DNA of 64,000 bases, taken from Gluconobacter sphaericus NBRC 12467 (GTDB lineage Bacteria > Pseudomonadota > Alphaproteobacteria > Acetobacterales > Acetobacteraceae). Both the position numbers and the translations under genes were made by a program. The stretch lies in NCBI RefSeq assembly GCF_006539125.1, contig NZ_BJMK01000002.1:1-64000 (forward strand), given 5' to 3'. The notes beneath the pieces were generated by a model. That model did no database searches and was not told the DNA's origin. It saw nothing but the letters and a program-made list of their open reading frames with translations. Below, one piece after another: positions 13,726-25,173 of this stretch. Within the stretch, counting starts at the first letter, position 1. The number at the start of each line of letters is the position of its first letter.

Positions 13726-15537
13726 TCAGGCCGCTGCGCCGGTCGGAGCCCTATCGTCATGGGCTGGAGCAGAAGAACAGAGACGGCGGTGGATGGCTTC
13801 CAGTTCGCCCCCCCCTTCGAGGCGGGGAGCACAGTACCGGGGCGTCCGGTCTGGCGCGTCAGGGTAAAGGGTCCTGTACTCTCCGGCATTGTGGAACATG
13901 CCACGCGATCCATCGTCGAGAAAACTTTCAGATGGCGCGCCTTCTGCCAGCAGAAGATCATGGCTTTCAAGTTCGATATGAATGTAGCGGATCGTCTCCG
14001 GACGTTCGATCTGGATAATCGATGTGCCGTTCACGAGATGAAGAGCGGGGACCAGGAACCCGTCGATGAACATGGCATGCAGAGGGGAGATCATCAGGTC
14101 CCGTCGGGGCAGCCCGTTCGTTAGGGCTCCGGCCCGGATCAGGATCGGCAGGACGTCGCGGTTGCCATAGGCGAAGAGGGGATCATAGGCGCGGCGCCCG
14201 ATCCAGTGTACCGGGCGGATCTGACCATCCGCAGTCAGGACGGGATCGCCGATTTCCAGATCTTCCACCGGTCGCTCCCCGTCCGGCGTCGCAATCAGGG
14301 TTCCGGGGCAGTAACAGGGCGTTCCGAAACCCATTTCGAGGTAATTTCCAGATGCCGCACGCGTGAAGTAGAGCGGGGATGTGAAATCTCCTGCGATTTC
14401 CACCTCTTCGATGACCGTCCCGGCGGATAACACTTCCAGCATGGCCTGGGGCGTGTCTCCCGACTGCACGGTTTCGGGTACAACCGTGCCGGAGACGTTG
14501 GAATATGAGTTGTCTACTCCAGCGAAAACGAAGGCTGCCCCGGTTTCGACCTGTACCGGGTTCTCAATAGTGGTCCCGCTCTCAATGGAAATCGTGCCAC
14601 CGTTGTTGACCGAGATGTCGGAAAGGGTGCTTCCGCTGAGAGCCGAGACTTCGCCGCCGCTTGAAATGGCCACTGTACTGGCGGAGCCGCCGACAATCAG
14701 GATGCCGTTATCTTCGACTGTAACGTTGTAGGTTGCACCATTGACGATCTGTTCGCCGAAACACGGAACGGTTGCCGTCGTAAAAGGCCAGTTTTGCTGG
14801 ACGACCTGAATGGAAGTTCCATCCAGGGTTGTATCGGTGGCTGTAGCGCCGCTTTGAATGGTGGAAAAACCGCCGCCATTGATTGTCGTGCCGCTGATAG
14901 AACCGCCGCTTTCCACCGTCTGGATGGCTGAGGCATAGCTTCTTGAATTTACTATATCGAGCGGGGAGAGAGGGTCCCCGCTGGTGACGAAAGGAGTTCC
15001 TGTCAGGATCGTCCCCTGTGCGGAGCCTCCAGCCTCAATGATCTGTTCCGCCTGACGTGGGCCAGACATAACCGGATACTGTGTGAAGTAATCGTAGTCT
15101 GCCGAAATCGTTGTATCGATCGCCATACCACCCGACTGGACAATCTGGGTGCCCTGATGGGCGCTCTGCGAGATCTGGTCCGGAGCGCCTTCGACCAAGG
15201 TATGCAGCGCTGAGCCGGAGACTAGTTCTGTTCCGCCCACAACCGTCGCAGAAAATACAGTTGCACCATTCTCTATAAGGGCAATGCGGTTGTTGCCGAT
15301 CGACAAGTTTTGAATGGTGCCACCGCTGGTAATAGCTGCTCCCGTGACGGAAACCGTTGTGACTTCCCGACCGTCCGTTAGGCTGACACTGTTGACGGCC
15401 CCTTCAATGGTCGCTGTTCCGCCGTCCTGAACAAGGATGGATGTTATCGAAGTGTCGGTGGGAAAGGTGGCGGACTGTCCACTGCTGATGGTTTGCTGGG
15501 TGCTACTGCTTGCTGAATAATCATTAGACGCCATCAT
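13726..15537 (-). CDS. AIDA-like repeat protein with C-terminal Hint domain
   Basis: A 603-aa protein. Residues 1-395 are strand-loop-strand repeats of the autotransporter-passenger type, about 20 residues each, rich in Ser/Thr/Gly. Examples are VESGGSISGTTINGGGFSTI and IQSGATATDTTLDG. Residues about 408-545 are a Hint (hedgehog/intein, Hint_2) domain beginning CYCPGTLIATPDGERPVEDL, with ILIRAGALTNGLPRRDLMIS and PLHAMFIDGFLVPA further on. The first Cys is in the splice/cleavage position. There is no classical signal peptide and no beta-barrel translocator, so secretion would need another route (type I or unknown). Self-cleavage to release or tether the passenger is inferred, not shown. Confidence 0.78.
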   Translation of the reverse strand: MMASNDYSASSSTQQTISSGQSATFPTDTSITSILVQDGGTATIEGAVNSVSLTDGREVTTVSVTGAAITSGGTIQNLSIGNNRIALIENGATVFSATVVGGTELVSGSALHTLVEGAPDQISQSAHQGTQIVQSGGMAIDTTISADYDYFTQYPVMSGPRQAEQIIEAGGSAQGTILTGTPFVTSGDPLSPLDIVNSRSYASAIQTVESGGSISGTTINGGGFSTIQSGATATDTTLDGTSIQVVQQNWPFTTATVPCFGEQIVNGATYNVTVEDNGILIVGGSASTVAISSGGEVSALSGSTLSDISVNNGGTISIESGTTIENPVQVETGAAFVFAGVDNSYSNVSGTVVPETVQSGDTPQAMLEVLSAGTVIEEVEIAGDFTSPLYFTRAASGNYLEMGFGTPCYCPGTLIATPDGERPVEDLEIGDPVLTADGQIRPVHWIGRRAYDPLFAYGNRDVLPILIRAGALTNGLPRRDLMISPLHAMFIDGFLVPALHLVNGTSIIQIERPETIRYIHIELESHDLLLAEGAPSESFLDDGSRGMFHNAGEYRTLYPDAPDRTPRYCAPRLEGGGELEAIHRRLCSSAPAHDDRAPTGAAA

Positions 15538-17226: not shown

Positions 17227-17433
17227 CTACTTGCCGGTCCGCAGGATCAGGCGTGCCAGAATGCGGGACACCATGATGATGAGCAGAAAGCCCAGTAGCT
17301 GGATCAGCATGTTCGGATGAGCTGGCGGGTTACGGAACATGATGAACAGCAGTGGCAGGGCGATCAGATAGCTCAGCCCGATGCGCTTCCAGACGATAGG
17401 ATCGGTTTTTGGGAAACGGGGCAGGAGGCTCAT
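17227..17433 (-). CDS. Small inner-membrane protein, unknown
   Basis: A 68-aa protein with two hydrophobic segments, about residues 19-34 (IGLSYLIALPLLFIMF) and 43-62 (LIQLLGFLLIIMVSRILARL). Its ATG overlaps the stop of the mlaF-like ATPase by 4 bp, so it is translated from the mlaEF transcript as the third gene. At this place many Mla operons have the MCE-domain protein MlaD; this protein has no MCE domain. I do not recognise a family. A role as a small accessory subunit of the transporter is a guess from position. Confidence 0.6.
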   Translation of the reverse strand: MSLLPRFPKTDPIVWKRIGLSYLIALPLLFIMFRNPPAHPNMLIQLLGFLLIIMVSRILARLILRTGK

Positions 17434-18230
17434 TTGCGCAGCTCCATGGTGATGGGGCCTTCGCGTCGGCCATGGGTGAATTGATCGACCATGGCATTGC
17501 CGGAATTCATGAGTTCGGAGGCGTCCCCCTGCCAGATCAGCTGTCCGCGATAGAGCATGGCCGCACGGTTCCCGATCCGCTGGGCCGAGGCCATGTCATG
17601 GGTGATGGCAATGGCGGTGGAGCCGAGCTTCTGTACGCAGTCCACGATCAGCCCGTCGATGACGGCGCCCATAATCGGGTCCAGCCCGGTCGTGGGCTCG
17701 TCGAAGAACATGATGTTGGGATTGCCCGCAATGGCGCGGGCCAGACCAACACGCTTCTGCATGCCCCCCGAAAGTTCGGATGGGCTCAGATCGCCAACGG
17801 ACGGGTCCAGCCCGACCTGTTTGAGCAGGTCACCAGCCATCTGGAGCGCCTGCGCGCGGGACGGGGGGGCGCCGCTGCGGTCGGAATGTTTGGCTCGGAT
17901 GCCGAAAGCCACGTTCTCGCCGACGCTCATGCTGTCGAACAGGGCAGCGTTCTGGAACAGCATCCCGATCTGCCGGCGCAGGGCGTCCTGCCGGGAGCGC
18001 GAAGCCGTCAGGAGGTTTTCACCATCGATCTCGATGCTACCGGCGTCAGGTTCGATCAGGCCGAGGATGCAGCGCAGCAGGACGGATTTGCCGGAGCCGG
18101 ACCCGCCAATGATGACCATGGACGTGCCGGCCTCGACATCGAGGTCCACGCCATCGAGCACGATCTTGGAGCCGAAAGCCTTGTGCAGGCCCCGGATGCG
18201 GATCTTAGGAGTGCTTAGGGGAGTGCTCAT
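17430..18230 (-). CDS. mlaF: MlaF-type ABC transporter ATP-binding protein
   Basis: A 266-aa ATPase of the MlaF/Ttg2A group. It has Walker A GGSGSGKSVLL at about 42-52, signature LSPSELSGGMQKRVGLARAI, and Walker B NIMFFDEPTTGLDP. The signature with GGMQKRVGLARA is characteristic of Mla-type rather than sugar ABC ATPases. It powers phospholipid transport between inner and outer membranes with the MlaE permease. It overlaps mlaE upstream (4 bp) and the small membrane protein downstream (4 bp). The periplasmic MlaC and MCE partner MlaD are not in the window. Confidence 0.9.
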   Translation of the reverse strand: MSTPLSTPKIRIRGLHKAFGSKIVLDGVDLDVEAGTSMVIIGGSGSGKSVLLRCILGLIEPDAGSIEIDGENLLTASRSRQDALRRQIGMLFQNAALFDSMSVGENVAFGIRAKHSDRSGAPPSRAQALQMAGDLLKQVGLDPSVGDLSPSELSGGMQKRVGLARAIAGNPNIMFFDEPTTGLDPIMGAVIDGLIVDCVQKLGSTAIAITHDMASAQRIGNRAAMLYRGQLIWQGDASELMNSGNAMVDQFTHGRREGPITMELRK

Positions 18231-19012
18231 TGTGAGAAGAACAGGTCCGTCAGGAGATAATCGAACAGCAGCAGCAGGATGGATGCGCCCACAACAGCGG
18301 CTGTCGTGGCCGAGCCTACGCCCTCTGCGCCTCCCCGGCTGTTATAGCCGTTGTAGCAACCCAGAAGCGCGATCAGAAATCCGAACACTGCCGCTTTGAC
18401 GAGGCCCACGACGACATCCATCGTCTTCAGCGAGTCCAGCGTGGCCGTGATGTAAGTCGAGGGCGAGAAGCCGAGCTTGGCCACCGAGACTGTGAAACCG
18501 CCCATCACGCCCAGAATATCTGCCACCAGCACAAGACAGGGAAGCGCGAGCGTCCCAGCCAGAAGGCGCGGCGTCACGAGATATTTCATCGGATCGGTGG
18601 ACAGCGTGGTGAGCGCGTCGATCTGGTCGGTCACGCGCATGGTGCCGATCTGCGCAGACATAGCCGCGCCCACGCGTCCGGCGACCATCAGCCCGGCCAG
18701 AACCGGGCCAAGCTCGCGGGTCACGGCCAGGACGACGATCCCGGCAATGGCGCTTTGAATGTGATACTGCCCGAAGCCCACATAGGACTGAAGCGCGATC
18801 ACTGCCCCCGAAAACAGGGCGGTGAGGGCTACGACGGGCAGGGAGAAGAACCCCGTCTCGATCAGGCTGGAGAAGAAAATCCGCCAATAAAAGGGCGGTC
18901 GCACCAGATGTGACAGAGCCTCCAGCGCGAACAGGGCGAGAGCACCTGCCTGCTTGATAAGGCCGAGAGCGGCACGGCCAAGGGCCGCTATGGGGTCAAG
19001 AACGGCATTCAC
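18227..19012 (-). CDS. mlaE: MlaE-type ABC transporter permease
   Basis: A 261-aa permease of the MlaE/Ttg2B family. About five to six TMs are seen. The conserved core is GAVIALQSYVGFGQYHIQ, then AVTRELGPVLAGLMVAGRVG with AAMSAQIGTMRVTDQIDAL, the family fingerprint, and GCYNGYNSRGGAEGVGSATT near the end. It is first in a minus-strand operon with mlaF and a 68-aa membrane protein. Its role is the membrane channel of a retrograde phospholipid transporter that maintains outer-membrane asymmetry. Confidence 0.92.
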   Translation of the reverse strand: MNAVLDPIAALGRAALGLIKQAGALALFALEALSHLVRPPFYWRIFFSSLIETGFFSLPVVALTALFSGAVIALQSYVGFGQYHIQSAIAGIVVLAVTRELGPVLAGLMVAGRVGAAMSAQIGTMRVTDQIDALTTLSTDPMKYLVTPRLLAGTLALPCLVLVADILGVMGGFTVSVAKLGFSPSTYITATLDSLKTMDVVVGLVKAAVFGFLIALLGCYNGYNSRGGAEGVGSATTAAVVGASILLLLFDYLLTDLFFSQ

Positions 19013-19083: not shown

Positions 19084-20451
19084 TCAGGCGCGGCGTCCGT
19101 CAGCCCGCTCAAGGTCCCGGAATTGTCTTTCCAGACTGAAATCGGGTGATGTGACGAATTGCTCCATCAGACCGAGCCGGCGTTCCATCCGGACCAGTCG
19201 GTCCTGAAGCCGTGCCAGCGGATGACCCGGCGGCACGGAGCGGGAGAAGTCCTCGGCCTGTTCCGGTTTCTGGCGGCGGAAACCCGTCACGGTATCACGC
19301 ACCACGGTCGTGGCGGTGGCAGCCGGAGTGTTCCGCCAGCCGGTGCGGTGCAGGGACCAGCTTCGCATGCCTTCGGCATATCCTGCGGCAGCTTTGTCCA
19401 GAGCGCTCCTGAACGGCAGGACGCCTGTTCGGCGATAGCGCCGGAAGAGACGCACGGCCCAGACGGTCAGGGCAATTTTCAGCAGAAGCCCGATCAGTCC
19501 GTGGCCGCCGAAGTGATGCCGGGTATGGACAGAGGATTCGGAATCCTCATCCGAATTCCCGAGCTGAATATGGAAGCTGTTAAAGACCTTTCGCGCCGTA
19601 TCGGACAGGATCGCCGATGAATCGGGTGTTGTTGAGGTCGTGATCCGTGCGCCCGTGCTTTCGGTAACGGAGATTGTGCCGGAACCGAGCGGGCGCTTCT
19701 TCAGCGTCTCGCTCACTTTCTGAAGCGTGATGTCACCGCTGCCCATGAGCGTCACATCTGCATCGCGCGTGCGGGTGTTCAGTACGATGTCGGACGAGCC
19801 ATAATCCCGGACTGTCAGGACATCCGTATCGCCCTGGCCGATCCGGATGTCGCCCGAGGACATGGCTGTCAGGTTCGCACTGGTGGCGGTGATGCTGTCG
19901 ATATGCAGGTCACCACTGGCAAGGTTCTGTACGGTCAGCCGACCCGTGACGTGTCGGATTGAGACCGTTCCCGAACCTTCCATGTTCAGGGTCAGACCAA
20001 CGGCCTGATCGACTTCCAAATCGCCTCGTCCTGTGACGGCCGTCACCTCACCATTGACGCCGCTGATGCGATACGTCGTCAGGTTATTCCGGGGAGACAG
20101 GATTTCGATACCGGTCTGGGCCGGGACCATGATGACGGCATTGTCCTGTGTTGAGCAGTCCTGTGCGGATGTCGTGAAGGTCAACCGGTCGCCGTGCTTA
20201 TTCAGGCGGCCGCTTCCCGAAACGATATGGGTGTCTTCTCCACCCACGACGGACATGCGGTCCAGGCATGTCGCGGGAATCACAAGTGTTCCGGAAGCCG
20301 TCAACGGAGCTTGCAGTGAAGGCGGCACGGGGGGAGTAGGGGGCTGCGGTGCCATGATCGCCGGCTCTGCGCGAGCCGAGCCCGGAAGGGCTGCGATGCC
20401 GCATCCCAGAAGCGCAATCAGGGCAAGACGTGCAGGCAGAGGCTGGCGCAT
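19084..20451 (-). CDS. Toast-rack (DUF2807-like) membrane protein with PspC-like C-terminal tail
   Basis: A 455-aa protein. It has a signal peptide (cleavage near GSARA, residue 28) and a beta-solenoid-like periplasmic domain with repeated SGDI units at about 100-290 (LASGDLHIDSI, MSSGDIRIGQG, YGSSDIVLNT, MGSGDITLQ). One TM lies at about 320-340 (IGLLLKIALTVWAVRLF), with a cytoplasmic part after it. The last 45 residues are coiled-coil-like and end MEQFVTSPDFSLERQFRDL. This closely resembles the end of E. coli PspC (MERYVTSDTFTLRSRFRQL). The PspC TM domain itself is absent. It is last in the pspA-pspB operon and probably replaces PspC as envelope sensor. Confidence 0.75.
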   Translation of the reverse strand: MRQPLPARLALIALLGCGIAALPGSARAEPAIMAPQPPTPPVPPSLQAPLTASGTLVIPATCLDRMSVVGGEDTHIVSGSGRLNKHGDRLTFTTSAQDCSTQDNAVIMVPAQTGIEILSPRNNLTTYRISGVNGEVTAVTGRGDLEVDQAVGLTLNMEGSGTVSIRHVTGRLTVQNLASGDLHIDSITATSANLTAMSSGDIRIGQGDTDVLTVRDYGSSDIVLNTRTRDADVTLMGSGDITLQKVSETLKKRPLGSGTISVTESTGARITTSTTPDSSAILSDTARKVFNSFHIQLGNSDEDSESSVHTRHHFGGHGLIGLLLKIALTVWAVRLFRRYRRTGVLPFRSALDKAAAGYAEGMRSWSLHRTGWRNTPAATATTVVRDTVTGFRRQKPEQAEDFSRSVPPGHPLARLQDRLVRMERRLGLMEQFVTSPDFSLERQFRDLERADGRRA

Positions 20452-20454
20452 GTC

Positions 20455-21768
20455 TTATTCTCCCTGTGAGTGGTTTCCGGCAGCCGGGGGCGTGACCGTT
20501 GCGGGGTTTGCCGGTGCTGGAGTGACCAGTGTCGGGGTTGCAGGCGCCGGGGTGGTGGGAGCTGGCGTGCTTTCAGGCGCGGGCGTGATGATCGGCTTTG
20601 CAGGCGTTTTGCTGTCCTGTGGCGCAGGTGACGTCTGGGGGGCGGTTGGCGATGCGGTCTGCGGTGCCGTGATCGGCGTGGATGCACTGGCGGATGTTGT
20701 AGGCGTCGCCGTAACGGGCGTGTTTGCGGCTGGGGAAGTTACAACCGGTGCGTTGTCTGACTGCGCGGCTTTCGCGGAAGGCGTGACGATGGGGGCCTGT
20801 GGTACGGTCGGGCTTTCAGGTGCGGACGGCACCGTCGGTGCGGGGATCGGTGCAGGCGCCGGCACGATTGGTGCAGGGACAGTTGCGGTCGCTTCCGTTC
20901 TCGTTGCAGGAGCCTGAACCGGAGTGGACGGCAGGGGAGCAGGTGTCGTGGGGACAGGTAGTGGAGCAGGGGGCGGTGATGTCGGGCGATAGATTACGCC
21001 GTTCTGTGCGCCGACACGTACGGTGCCTTTGCCCGAGCGTACCATCGGTCCGGAAACCGTTTCGATATTGACCTCACCCGTCCCGTTGGCCGCGACGGTC
21101 GCAACAGTTGCATGACCCAGAATGGTGGCGCTTGCCTGATCGGCCGTCACCAGAGTCAGGGCGTCAATGCTGCTGCCGGAAAGAGTCATGGCCGCATTCT
21201 GAGTTAGCTGCGCCGAAAGGGCCGTGAGTTGCACGGTGTCGGCCGTCAGGGTCGAGGTTCCCGACGCCACGATCTGCGCTGCGCGTTCCAGTGACTTGAT
21301 ATGGACGCTGGAGGCCCCCTGCATGTTCAGGTCCAGCGACTGAGTGTCCTCAATGTCCATGGTCGTGGAATCGAGGCTGGCATCCAGGGAAGCGAGCGTT
21401 CCCGTGATGACGAAATGCGTGTCGTGGCTGTCATGGATGGTCAGGCCGGTGTTGGGAGAAATGCTGATCGTCAGCTTTCCGTTCGGCGCGCAGGCTTTTG
21501 TTGCAATGGAAATGCGGCTCTGCGCCTCTTCCTTGCCGGTGTGCATTGCGACCTGGGTCATGCTGCTTGAATCAAGGGTCGCCCCGTCCTTCATGGCGGG
21601 ATCGACCACGACCCTGACCTGTCCGGTGCAGGGAACGGACAGGTCCAGGTCTTCTCCGGACAGGGTCATCCGTGCGGCATGAGCCGCCGGCGCCAGCAGG
21701 GCCACTCCCGCCAGCAGGACCAGAAGCACCGGGCGGGGGGTGGAAAAGAAGACGGGGCGGCGTGTCAT
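20455..21768 (-). CDS. Secreted toast-rack (DUF2807-like) protein with Pro/Thr/Ala-rich tail
   Basis: A 437-aa protein with a signal peptide (cleavage near PAAHA, residue 31). Residues about 35-255 form an adhesin-like beta-solenoid domain with SGTSTLTADTV and NGTGEVNIETVSG units. Residues about 265-437 are a low-complexity Pro/Ala/Thr tail. No TM follows, so the protein should be periplasmic or secreted; the tail could span peptidoglycan. Its start overlaps the pspB stop by 4 bp and its stop lies 3 bp before the next toast-rack gene, so it is part of the psp operon. Function is unknown; toast-rack domains are known partners of Psp systems. Confidence 0.7.
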   Translation of the reverse strand: MTRRPVFFSTPRPVLLVLLAGVALLAPAAHAARMTLSGEDLDLSVPCTGQVRVVVDPAMKDGATLDSSSMTQVAMHTGKEEAQSRISIATKACAPNGKLTISISPNTGLTIHDSHDTHFVITGTLASLDASLDSTTMDIEDTQSLDLNMQGASSVHIKSLERAAQIVASGTSTLTADTVQLTALSAQLTQNAAMTLSGSSIDALTLVTADQASATILGHATVATVAANGTGEVNIETVSGPMVRSGKGTVRVGAQNGVIYRPTSPPPAPLPVPTTPAPLPSTPVQAPATRTEATATVPAPIVPAPAPIPAPTVPSAPESPTVPQAPIVTPSAKAAQSDNAPVVTSPAANTPVTATPTTSASASTPITAPQTASPTAPQTSPAPQDSKTPAKPIITPAPESTPAPTTPAPATPTLVTPAPANPATVTPPAAGNHSQGE

Positions 21769-22004
21769 CGTGCGTTCCTTGCTCTCCAGCCCGGGATATC
21801 CTCATCGAGGATACGTTCGAGCTGGTCGATCCTTTCTTCCAGACGCGTAGCATGCGCTTCGGCCTGTGTCAGGGCGGCCTGAAGCGTGGGATCGGGCTGG
21901 CTGGCGCGATCGGACTGGCGCGTCGTGTGCTTGACCATGCTGGTTACCGACCACGCGATGATGGCGATGATGGGGATGAGAAGCGCCAGATTGTCCGAAC
22001 TCAT
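21765..22004 (-). CDS. pspB: PspB-like envelope stress membrane protein
   Basis: A 79-aa protein with one N-terminal TM (LALLIPIIAIIAWSVTSMV, about 6-24). A charged coiled-coil follows, with LTQAEAHATRLEERIDQLER and ILDEDIPGWR, matching PspB, whose C-terminus has the same DxxxPxWR ending. PspB with PspC senses envelope stress and relieves PspA inhibition of PspF. It lies 30 bp downstream of pspA and overlaps the next gene by 4 bp. Confidence 0.85.
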   Translation of the reverse strand: MSSDNLALLIPIIAIIAWSVTSMVKHTTRQSDRASQPDPTLQAALTQAEAHATRLEERIDQLERILDEDIPGWRARNAR

Positions 22005-22034: not shown

Positions 22035-22718
22035 TCAGACTGCATTTTTCTTTTCGGCAACACGGCGCTTGAGGGCTTCGAACTCGTTTTCCACGACAGC
22101 ATCGGTTTCAAGTGCTGCGAGTTCCTCCTGAAGTGTCGGGTGTCCCGTGCGGCGGCCCAGATCATACGCTTCGGCCTTGCCTTCCAGTTCATCAAGAGCG
22201 CGTTCCACCTGATCGAATCGGTTCAGCGTGTCGTCGATGCGGGTGTCATAGAGCTTCTCGCGGGTTTTCAGGCGGCCCTGTGCGGTCCGTGCGCGGATGG
22301 AGAGTGCCTTTTCGCGGGATTTGGCATCCGCAAGCTTGGCTTGCAGCTTGGAGATGTCATCGTTCTGCTGGTCCAGCCCGTCGGAAATCTGGGCGATCTG
22401 CTGCTCCAGTGCCTCGCGGGACTGTTCGACGCTGTGACGGGCAGCGAGGGCGGCTTTCGCCAGATCGTCACGACCTCGCTCGATGGCGAGGCCGGCTTTG
22501 CGGTGCCACTCGTCTTCTTCGTGCATCATGGTGCGGACGCGACGCTCAAGCTGCTTACGTTCGGCGATCGTCCGGACGGCCTGACTGCGGACTTCGACCA
22601 GCGTGTCTTCCATTTCCTGAATGACCAGGCGGATCATTTTCTGCGGGTCTTCGGCGGTGGCGAGAATCGCATTGAGATTAGAGTTCACGATATCAGCGAG
22701 GCGAGAGAAAATACCCAT
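22035..22718 (-). CDS. pspA: Phage shock protein PspA
   Basis: A 227-aa PspA/IM30-family protein. It begins MGIFSRLADIVNSNLNAILA, with amphipathic helix 0 followed by the conserved EDPQKMIRLVIQEMEDTLVE. The rest is almost wholly coiled-coil (for example REKLYDTRIDDTLNRFDQVE). It binds the inner face of the cytoplasmic membrane under stress and inhibits PspF when not stressed. It is first in a minus-strand operon with pspB and the two toast-rack genes. The pspF gene is divergent, with 98 bp between starts. I searched this gap for a sigma-54 GG/GC promoter and saw no convincing one. Confidence 0.93.
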   Translation of the reverse strand: MGIFSRLADIVNSNLNAILATAEDPQKMIRLVIQEMEDTLVEVRSQAVRTIAERKQLERRVRTMMHEEDEWHRKAGLAIERGRDDLAKAALAARHSVEQSREALEQQIAQISDGLDQQNDDISKLQAKLADAKSREKALSIRARTAQGRLKTREKLYDTRIDDTLNRFDQVERALDELEGKAEAYDLGRRTGHPTLQEELAALETDAVVENEFEALKRRVAEKKNAV

Positions 22719-22816
22719 GATGCTTTCCTTCCTGTGAGAGAGACTTAGGACAGAATGCCTGCCCTTGTCAGCGATGCTGTTTTGAGAGTGTTATGAACTG
22801 AAGATCGAAACAGGGC

Positions 22817-23884
22817 GTGAGAGACCAGAAAATGGCGAGAAGCACCGATATGGATGAGGTGCCGACCCCGATCGGGCGGGCTCCGGCATTTCTGGAGATG
22901 CTGGATCAGGTCTCCAGACTTGCGCCCCTGAAACGCCCGGTTCTCGTGATCGGCGAGCGCGGGACGGGCAAAGAACTGGTAGCCGCGCGTCTGGCCCTGT
23001 TGTCGGACCGCTGGGACCGACCGCTGGTGAAGCTTAACTGTGCGGCCCTGCCTGAGGCGCTTTTGGATAGTGAACTGTTCGGCCATGAGGCGGGTGCTTT
23101 TACAGGCGCGCAGAAGCGCCGCCTTTCCCGCTTCGAGCGGGCGGATGGGGGAACGATGTTTCTCGATGAGATCGGCACCGCGTCCCAGGCTGTGCAGGAA
23201 AAGCTGCTGCGAGTGATCGAGTATGGCAGTTTCGAGCGTGTGGGGGGCAGCGAAACCATCCGTGTGGACGTGCGGCTGATTGGGGCGACCAATGCCGATC
23301 TGCCAGTCATGGCGCAGGAAGGGCGCTTTCGGGCGGATTTGCTGGATCGGCTGGCATTCGATGTCGTGAATATTCCACCGCTGCGCGCTCGTCCGGAGGA
23401 TATCCCGCTGCTCGCCGGACACTTTGCCACCCGCATGAGCGCAGAACTGGGGCGAAAGGTTTTTGCGGGCTTTACGAACCGGGCGCTGGCGCGTTTGCAG
23501 GCGTATGACTGGCCGGGCAATGTGCGCGAGCTGCGTAACGTGGTCGAGCGTAGTGTTTATCGGATGGACCGTCCGGAAAAGGCGCTGGACGAGATTGTAC
23601 TGGATCCGTTTGTGACGCCGGACTGGCTGGGCATGGCCGCTCCGGCTGCTGTTCCTGCGGTAAGTGTGGGCACAGGCGAGGTGCTGACATTTCCGCGGGA
23701 TTTCGGGGCGGATGTCCGGGCGCATGAACGCAGTCTTCTGGAAGCCGCCCTGCGCGAGGCGCAGTTCAGTCAGCGGCGCGCGGCCGAGCTGCTCGGTCTG
23801 ACCTACTACCAGTTCCGCCATCATCTGCGACTGCACGGTCTGGCGGACAAGGAAGCCCGCAAGGCGCTGGGTGCAAAAGGGTGA
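22817..23884 (+). CDS. pspF: PspF, sigma-54-dependent activator of the psp operon
   Basis: A 355-aa protein that lacks a regulatory N-terminal domain, as in PspF. The AAA+ domain has Walker A GERGTGKE at about 46-53, the sigma-54 contact loop GAFTGA at about 93-98, Walker B GGTMFLDEIG, and the arginine-finger region FRADLLDRLAFDVV. A Fis-type HTH at the C-terminus (FSQRRAAELLGLTYYQFRHH) is close to E. coli PspF. The start is GTG at 22817 or ATG at 22832. It is divergent from pspA, the usual arrangement. The target sigma-54 promoter could not be placed. Confidence 0.93.
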   Translation: MRDQKMARSTDMDEVPTPIGRAPAFLEMLDQVSRLAPLKRPVLVIGERGTGKELVAARLALLSDRWDRPLVKLNCAALPEALLDSELFGHEAGAFTGAQKRRLSRFERADGGTMFLDEIGTASQAVQEKLLRVIEYGSFERVGGSETIRVDVRLIGATNADLPVMAQEGRFRADLLDRLAFDVVNIPPLRARPEDIPLLAGHFATRMSAELGRKVFAGFTNRALARLQAYDWPGNVRELRNVVERSVYRMDRPEKALDEIVLDPFVTPDWLGMAAPAAVPAVSVGTGEVLTFPRDFGADVRAHERSLLEAALREAQFSQRRAAELLGLTYYQFRHHLRLHGLADKEARKALGAKG

Positions 23885-24147
23885 GAGCATGTCCATGGAA
23901 TTCCATGATGCATAAATCATGCCAGATTGCGTTCAGAGGGATTTTCAGGTTTTCGAAACGGTGTCTCGTAGAGGCTATAATGGCGAATTGTGCTATTATG
24001 TGGTGCGTGGAGCTATTTTTCCTTGAGGAGGCTGTGTCTGTGTCGGCATTGACAGATTTTTAACCGTCTCCCTATAGCCTTCCAGACAGTCGCATCCCGT
24101 ATTTTCGGGGATGTTGCGTCAGGTTTCTGTCCAGATATCGAGGTTCC
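23885..24147 (+). promoter_or_regulatory. Gap with TATAAT box and Shine-Dalgarno-led mini-ORF
   Basis: No gene is seen. A perfect TATAAT is present at 23976-23981 without a good -35 partner. At 24026-24031 there is a strong AGGAGG followed by a 9-codon ORF (GTG at 24034, TAA at 24061-24063). It could be a promoter and leader for the methyltransferase gene that starts at 24148. Confidence 0.3.
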
Positions 24148-25173
24148 GTGCCAGAAATTTTCCGCAAACGTCAGACGGCCCTGCGGCGCGGCATTGATTT
24201 CACTCAGGCCCGCTGCCTGGAAATCGGGGCGCTGACGACGCCGGTTCTGACGCGGGAAGAGTGTCAGGTTCTTTATGCGGACCGGGTCGATACGGAAGGA
24301 CTGCTGCGTCAGTTCGCGTGGGACCCGGCTGTGACCCCTGACAATCTGGCTCCGGTAGATATCGTCTGGCTTGATCGTCCTCTGAAGGACTGTGTGGATG
24401 GATCGTTTGATCTGATCGTGGCGTCTCATGTGGGCGAGCATGTTCCGGATTTGATCGGCTGGCTGGCCGAGGCCTCCGAAGTATTGTCGGCGGAGGGCGA
24501 AATTCGCCTGATGCTGCCCGATGCCCGTTTTTCTTTTGATGCGCTGCGGCCACCGACCCGGCTGGCAGATCTGCTGGTTGCATGGCTTCAGAAGCGGCGT
24601 ACGCCGGATGCACGTGACATTCTCGATTTCGCGCTGAATAAGGTGCGCGATTCCGAGGTGCAATGTCAGGATTTTTACGAGGGGCTGAGTGCGCCCGGTG
24701 ACATGACGGCGCAGTTTTCCTTTGAGGAGGCGCTGGACTGGGTGCGTCCTGCGCTGGCTAATCCGTCACATTATGTGGATGTGCATTGCTGGGTGTTCAC
24801 CCCGCGCCATCTTGCGGAACTGATGATTCCGCTGGTGCGGAACAATGTGCTGGATCTGGCCTGCGCGGGGTTTGAGGATACGGCGCCACCGGGGTTTGAA
24901 TTCGGAGTGTTTTTTCGGGTTGAGCCGGATGTCCGCCTGCGTGTGGAAAGTTGGGAGCGCATGGCGCGCGAGGTGGCGGATCCGCTGCCAGGATCTGCGG
25001 CGGCCCGGCAGAGGGAAGTGGAGCCGATAGAAGTGTCTCGTGTTTTACGTGATGAATCCCCTCTGGACGGTTCGAGCTGGAGGGAGCGTCTGAGGGGTCT
25101 TTCGGGAATGACTCGACTAAAGCAGTTCGCGGCCTGGCGATATACTGCGCCTCTACGGCGGAGATTTCGCTGA
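24148..25173 (+). CDS. SAM-dependent methyltransferase-like protein
   Basis: A 341-aa cytoplasmic protein. Residues about 20-130 resemble a class I SAM-methyltransferase core. LEIGALTTPVLTREECQVLY takes the motif I place, VDGSFDLIVASHVGEHVPDL is the SFDLVxxxHVLEH-like motif, and LSAEGEIRLMLPD follows. Similar proteins sit in surface polysaccharide clusters of acetic acid bacteria, often next to glycosyltransferases; here it is alone. The C-terminal 180 residues are not recognised. The start is GTG with GAGG 5 bp upstream. The substrate is unknown, and a binding-only role cannot be excluded. Confidence 0.65.
   Translation: MPEIFRKRQTALRRGIDFTQARCLEIGALTTPVLTREECQVLYADRVDTEGLLRQFAWDPAVTPDNLAPVDIVWLDRPLKDCVDGSFDLIVASHVGEHVPDLIGWLAEASEVLSAEGEIRLMLPDARFSFDALRPPTRLADLLVAWLQKRRTPDARDILDFALNKVRDSEVQCQDFYEGLSAPGDMTAQFSFEEALDWVRPALANPSHYVDVHCWVFTPRHLAELMIPLVRNNVLDLACAGFEDTAPPGFEFGVFFRVEPDVRLRVESWERMAREVADPLPGSAAARQREVEPIEVSRVLRDESPLDGSSWRERLRGLSGMTRLKQFAAWRYTAPLRRRFR

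Follow-up and report, generated by a model that had tools for sequence, protein, structure and literature searches.

PspC of E. coli and Yersinia (TIGR02978, PF04024) is encoded with pspA, pspB and pspF, and in the on state it binds PspA through its C-terminal cytoplasmic domain (PMC5596341). Among three fragments of E. coli PspC, residues 40–119 alone interacted with PspA; the leucine zipper was needed for this interaction and for induction, and the determinants for PspB binding lay in the membrane part, residues 40–68 (PMC3068692). The same paper draws the PspC end as periplasmic and proposes two topologies; both the signal sensed by PspC and the membrane side of its tail have been debated. 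The title of a 2016 study cited in PMC5596341 states that the cytoplasmic domains of PspB and PspC interact, silencing the response.

Ravi et al. (2024; PMC11237479) reported that Toastrack proteins replace PspC in some Alphaproteobacteria, and their pspFAB loci with multiple Toastracks (e.g., ANQ40502.1) are of the same kind as the locus analyzed here. They inferred that Toastrack is intracellular, whereas the DUF4097 domain of LiaG has been termed extracellular (PMC9239133), and the literature is therefore split on the membrane side of this domain. The protein described below resembles E. coli and Yersinia PspC in its C-terminal tail, its end motif and its operon partners, whereas a signal peptide, a toast-rack and a single helix replace the PspC N-domain. 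It also resembles PspC-Toastrack fusions and LiaF/LiaG-type proteins in joining a toast-rack to a Psp membrane module. However, in Ravi et al. the Toastrack is C-terminal to the membrane domain, whereas the present protein has it near the N-terminus, following a signal peptide, with the predicted cytoplasmic tail last. The PspC tail on a Toastrack protein, its predicted periplasmic topology and the change in PspB are not described in the consulted portions of PMC11237479. As far as our searches of the open-access literature reach, the tail, topology, matching PspB and promoter position appear to be new, whereas toast-racks replacing PspC were already known (PMC11237479). These searches returned no relevant title on Psp in Gluconobacter or acetic acid bacteria, tied DUF2807 to phage shock in Ravi et al. 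only, and found none joining pspF with an excludon.

The window, the whole 64,000-nucleotide stretch analyzed, comes from contig 2, and the genome (3.06 Mb, completeness 99.92) contains rpoN alongside pspA, pspB and pspF. The gene order on its minus strand is pspA (22035..22718; TIGR02977, 285.4 bits), an LDED-type pspB (21765..22004; TIGR02976, 80.9 bits), ORF3 (20455..21768; 437 aa), the fusion gene for a toast-rack protein with a PspC-type tail (19084..20451; 455 aa, identified by profile matches), an adjoining mlaE-family permease gene (18227..19012; PF02405, 250 bits; TIGR00056, 237.6 bits, above cut-off) and an mlaF-like ABC ATPase gene (17430..18230; NF008809, E 3e-50, below its cut-off, with TIGR01186 scoring slightly higher). 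Divergent from these is pspF (22817..23884, plus strand; TIGR02974, 504.7 bits), in which GAFTGA is present. An earlier note on this DNA had placed the fusion gene fourth in a pspA-pspB operon lacking pspC, and both points hold. The pspB gene and ORF3 overlap by 4 bases. The ORF3 product is a toast-rack relative with a signal peptide and a Pro-rich end; its DUF2807 match (E 0.26) is below cut-off, it cross-matches toast-rack proteins in phmmer, and no second hydrophobic segment was called in it. The operon is shared by G. oxydans, G. aidae and G. potus, whose fusion proteins are 88–91% identical to that of the window. Genes like mlaE and mlaF lie 3' of the fusion gene in the window (17430..19012), in seven other full operons, in genome G022 and in the loci of these three species (L151–L153), and such neighbors would tie the Psp module to lipid transport.

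The signal peptide, toast-rack, single transmembrane helix and C-terminal coil described in the earlier note were all found in the 455-residue ORF. The signal peptide spans residues 1–28 (20368..20451, minus strand), with a hydrophobic segment at 4–22 and an ARA site read by eye. The toast-rack, a predicted beta-solenoid at residues 51–290 (19582..20301, minus strand), was delimited with Pfam, AF2 and phmmer: it matched DUF2807 at 34.2 bits (cut-off 24.2) and Toastrack DUF4097 at 24.7 bits (cut-off 22.9), and phmmer against structures retrieved 3pet (E 5.1e-4) and 3jx8 (E 0.0054). A Foldseek search gave weak matches, with 3jx8, 4opw and 3pet in the first 11 rows at E 0.04–0.83. NCBIfam LiaG also matched the fusion protein (P0001) weakly, below cut-off (E 3.9e-4). 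In the AF2 model, built on an alignment of four near-identical sequences, strands run from 53 to 272, with pLDDT of 80–96 (blocks of ten) for residues 141–270 and 42–48 for the tail.

The hydrophobicity call and AF2 gave a single transmembrane helix at residues 317–338 (19438..19503, minus strand), and the 15 residues that follow it carry a net charge of +5. Next comes a weakly constrained, presumably cytoplasmic linker, residues 339–405 (19237..19437, minus strand). Among 15 relatives examined, a helix was called ahead of the tail in 14, with a net charge between +1 and +6 after it, and none was called in the remaining one; in two of the 14 (L063 and L071 5889) the positive charge after the helix does not exceed that before it. 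By the positive-inside rule, the toast-rack would be periplasmic and the tail cytoplasmic. The protein can be regarded as a natural experiment, as a signal peptide followed by one helix and a conserved tail argues for a cytoplasmic tail, and its topology bears on the published inference of an intracellular Toastrack.

The PspC-type tail, residues 406–450 (19102..19236, minus strand), consists of a coil and VTSPDF..FRDL, and was delimited by profiles and dN/dS. The earlier note had likened it to the end of E. coli PspC, quoting that end correctly, and had called for a profile comparison, which gave a match. With NCBIfam PspC TIGR02978, residues 395–447 aligned to profile positions 69–121 of 121 (E 1.6e-6), the 28 bits falling far short of the whole-protein cut-off of 104 bits; a second PspC model, NF007973, matched at E 6.6e-4, and both models matched the tail only. 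We also built a profile from 16 PspC tails (15 from the family and that of E. coli), including no toast-rack protein. Against this profile the fusion ORF scored 51.8 bits (E 4e-15), versus 6.5 for the next best of 1630 six-frame segments of the window, and its last 60 residues scored 56.6 bits versus 22.4 for the best of 20,000 shuffles. When the profile was instead built on 51 PspC tails taken from beyond the family, the window's protein scored 46.1 bits and the full set of 17 fusion proteins 29.6–50.4 bits. In an alignment of 29 tails, R24, E29 and L39 do not vary, and V32, T33, F37 and F43 hardly do (positions counted in the first row). The quoted tail motif is present as the earlier note had it, but not at the very end of the protein, since eight residues (ERADGRRA) come after it. 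Comparison of the window with the three Gluconobacter species gave dN/dS values of 0, 0.034 and 0.021 for the tail, 0.13–0.20 for the toast-rack and 0.33–0.48 for the linker, and the tail is the most constrained region of the fusion protein.

Judged on these sequence comparisons, the tail is homologous to the end of PspC. The tail does contain a coil, and coils draw weak matches, so it might be a mere oligomerization coil whose likeness to PspC reflects convergence of charged helices; we consider this very improbable. The match extends over the VTSxxFxL..FRxL end motif of PspC as well, the real tail far exceeds its shuffles and has dN/dS of 0–0.034, and PspB of the same operon, itself a coil protein, obtained 4.9 bits with the PspC-tail profile. 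Convergence is disfavored by the shuffles and the end motif. Another proposal, that the tail is better named a PspB-type domain and that the PspC tail may itself be a divergent PspB, follows the description of PspC as "fused to a divergent C-terminal PspB" in Ravi et al. (PMC11237479). The window's PspB (P0003) weakly matches the PspC models (E 0.012 and 0.088), and among three single-TM hybrids compared with profiles, two matched PspB as well as PspC. The fusion protein, however, carries the PspC end motif and matches two PspC models and no PspB model up to E 10, a range in which HMMER filters drop most matches above about 0.1. We regard the PspB-type naming as improbable, and it alters the name more than the mechanism.

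The two-helix membrane domain of PspC is missing from the fusion protein, as the earlier note had said: PF04024, the PspC N-domain, was absent from its Pfam matches up to E 10. A pspC gene elsewhere in the genome was ruled out, as PF04024 had no match there at E≤0.001 or at E≤1. An N-domain profile gave at most 1.4 bits for all 17 fusion proteins, versus 31–96 bits for 19 family PspCs, most of which were part of the seed of that profile, and the eight genomes with a full fusion operon had no PspC N-domain above cut-off. The conserved fusion of a PspC tail to a toast-rack is real, and it probably replaces PspC.

To place the fusion in the family, we surveyed 150 genomes, the window's own included, searching for fusion proteins at E≤0.001, which gives a lower bound. 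At least 17 fusion proteins occur in at least 14 genomes, and several related genera of acetic acid bacteria share the swap of PspC for the fusion. ANQ40502.1 may also come from an acetic acid bacterium. A convincing PspB and a PspC or toast-rack tail occur in the same 30 of the 150 genomes, with weak matches in long frames (G021; G028 and G113) left out of this count. Eleven genomes (G023, G034, G057, G058, G081, G096, G103, G133, G134, G143, G146) have pspABC with no toast-rack gene seen in the stretches read (Type I). Five (G001, G056, G071, G086, G132) have pspABC plus a tail-less toast-rack gene (Type II); these resemble the window in having a toast-rack gene in the psp operon but differ in that PspC is complete and the toast-rack protein has no tail, an N-terminal hydrophobic segment being called in three of the five. 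The window's operon type (Type III) was found in eight genomes (G000, G008, G025, G037, G048, G079, G085, G149), three of which (G008, G085, G149) encode two tail-bearing toast-racks each. G022 has the Type III genes minus pspA and pspF. In three genomes (Type IV: G043, G049, G080) the pspB-fusion pair lies on a different contig from the pspABC locus; the G049 fusion gene is broken by consecutive N letters, read as X, and its C-terminal frame alone was used. Only the pspB-fusion pair was found in G128 and G145 (completeness 85 and 66). A 28-row tree of PspA+PspF grouped the Type III genomes in one clade (98/100) and the Type IV genomes in a second (100/100).

Outside the family, the tail profile matched 57 of 385 genomes of the class and 87 of 398 of the phylum. 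Apart from the window's own, matches above 45 bits sit in frames of at most 259 aa. In 54 loci (L097–L150), 51 of 57 tail matches lie in frames with a PspC N-domain, and the other six lie in frames of 74–182 aa, too short for the fusion architecture. For matches without a locus, 11 further places were read (G188, G480, G413, G496, G263 and six second matches), and G322, G417 and G744 were fetched again. No toast-rack-tail fusion was found outside the family among the loci and further places read.

PspB differs with its partner. The motif after the PspB coil is LDED in all 14 PspBs beside a fusion and in none of the 21 beside a PspC (the 21 include E. coli, two rows of G096 and G058 with its identical copy G134); each of the three Type IV genomes has a PspB with LDED and another that lacks it. 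In a PspB tree of 32 rows, built without the two G096 rows and without G134, whose row equals that of G058, and with the G132 PspB trimmed by 45 aa, the 14 fusion-side PspBs made up one side of a branch (93/98); with both long G096 rows kept, two changes were needed instead of one. Duplication of pspB within G043, G049 and G080 was rejected: a tree joining both of their PspBs had a p-AU of 0.005, the group for this test having been picked after an earlier PspB tree had been viewed. Because of the LDED split, the tree branch and the presence of one PspB of each kind in the Type IV genomes, pspB and the fusion gene appear to behave as a module standing where pspB and pspC stood. The contrast between LDED and LDAE points to candidate residues for partner choice. 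The tail of PspC itself is weak in the Type IV genomes (17.0, 18.7 and 26.6 bits), where the fusion tail is intact (43.0–44.1 bits), and the N-domains of these PspCs are weak too (31–47 bits), as if PspC had been released from its job. This is suggestive only, because G096, which has no fusion, also has a weak PspC tail (21.8 bits), and as G043, G049 and G080 form one clade, they represent at most one event. As a separate observation, the PspB membrane segment (window 21765..22004; L151–L153) is quite unlike in G. aidae and G. potus compared with the window and G. oxydans, and the last 42 PspB residues differ by about one residue.

We consider that the fusion protein functionally replaces PspC, with the periplasmic toast-rack as sensor, and give this reading a probability of roughly two in three. 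The tail homology, domain order, absent N-domain, tail constraint and co-occurrence with a distinct PspB type were computed here. The protein would present a periplasmic toast-rack and one inner-membrane helix, its cytoplasmic end being the partner-binding tail of PspC. By analogy with PspC, the tail would be held with PspB at rest; a signal meeting the toast-rack would free the tail to bind PspA, and PspA bound in this way would release PspF. Binding of PspB and PspA by the tail is extrapolated from work on PspC, and the sensing and its coupling to PspA/PspF are likewise proposed. The PspB contact in the membrane part of E. coli PspC would speak against tail-PspB pairing as the sole contact. 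Such a protein would offer a soluble periplasmic domain for ligand searches and would separate the sensor from the output arm.

We counted several points against the replacement of PspC: G022 retains pspB and the fusion but has neither pspA nor rpoN, Type III loci have no sigma-54-type site ahead of pspA, the AF2 pLDDT of the tail is low, L063 and L071 5889 show the charge pattern noted above, and the PspC tail of G096 is weak. The first of these touches on a different proposal, in which PspB and the toast-rack protein form a PspA-independent envelope-maintenance complex, perhaps with an MlaE/F-type transporter, and the tail anchors PspB without signaling to PspF. This is consistent with the mlaE- and mlaF-like genes 3' of the fusion in the window, seven other full operons, G022 and the three named Gluconobacter loci, and with the five genomes that have the pspB-fusion pair and no pspA in the stretch read. 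G022 (completeness 100) has pspB, ORF3 and the fusion, with no match to pspA or rpoN and no pspF in the stretch read. However, the end of its tail is degenerate (SRGSDR versus FRDLDR elsewhere; 32.9 bits), as if contact with PspA had been lost together with pspA, although this is one case, and the eight full operons keep pspA and pspF in genomes that keep rpoN. We therefore hold an envelope complex of this kind to be unlikely. In G022 the FRDL end is lost and the VTS-like part remains, which in this one case would fit PspA touching the last helix in the preferred replacement of PspC.

A sigma-54 -24/-12-type site found by pattern match, TGGCATGATTTATGCA (23909..23924, minus strand), agrees at 9 of 11 letters with what we take to be the consensus, sits 24 bp past the pspF stop and is oriented into pspF. 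Upstream of it, the dyad ATAGCACAATTCGCCAT (23980..23996, minus strand; 9 of 10 arm letters) is a candidate activator site. TGGCAY-N6-TGC was found 15–35 bp past the pspF stop on the pspA strand in all 11 Type III loci and in none of 23 other loci with sequence at that place; the 11 loci (the window, seven other survey genomes and the three named species; L062, L064, L065, L067, L069, L071, L074 and L151–L153 besides the window) are related and not independent, and the position was noticed in a genome-wide pattern list and tested afterwards. Shuffle p-values per locus were 0 to 0.057. A single match means little, because the counts are near the controls: the exact 16-letter pattern occurs 35 times in the eight Type III genomes versus 23 for the reversed pattern, and the 15-letter pattern with up to two mismatches occurs 62 times in the window versus 75.5 expected. 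The case for a putative promoter rests on the shared position past the pspF stop. Dyads like ATGGC-N7-GCCAT lie 47–94 bp upstream of the site, with at least 8 of 10 arm letters in 10 of the 11 loci (7 in L074), and accompany the loci's own sigma-54-type site in 7 of 12 Type I/II loci; the dyad consensus was drawn from some of the sequences later scored, which makes the p-values flattering.

Ten of the 11 Type I loci, two of the five Type II loci and E. coli carry TGGCAY-N6-TGY 32–69 bp ahead of pspA, and one of three Type IV loci has a sigma-54-type site 272 bp away. No strict-rule site lies within 220 bp ahead of pspA in Type III, two poor matches excepted; within 130 bp the best agreement is 6–7 of 11 consensus letters, no better than shuffles, and between pspF and pspA of the window the best within 130 bp is 6 of 11, equalled by every shuffle. 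Several Type III loci share, by eye, a TGACA-like box near −50, so pspA may be served by a separate promoter. A search of window positions 22600..24150 for terminator-like patterns gave none, and an RNA starting from the site past the pspF stop would run antisense along the whole of pspF before it could reach pspA. It is conceivable, although we advance this tentatively and find it somewhat doubtful, that the PspC tail is a plug-in output module, transferred together with a matching PspB to a solenoid sensor in the periplasm, and that a PspF-dependent promoter beyond pspF adds an excludon-like self-limiting switch. If so, activation of the operon would transcribe the whole of pspF antisense, and the sensor and feedback would have been rewired together.

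Other features were observed in the same searches. Two genomes of the window's genus, G054 and G131, had no PspA, PspB, PspC or rpoN match, so sigma-54 appears to be absent along with the psp system. The window also encodes a 603-aa protein (13726..15537) that contains a Hint_2 domain and weakly matches a model of the AIDA autotransporter stalk. Small proteins of 70–99 aa that have a PspC-type end and show, by eye, a single hydrophobic stretch were seen at L155 5326–5568 and L166 4816–5052, and further ones at L158 4475–4687, L159 4436–4660, L160–L163 and L167. Two of these lie in psp operons, with no pspA in the other stretches read; of the three compared with profiles, one matched PspC only and the other two matched PspB as well.
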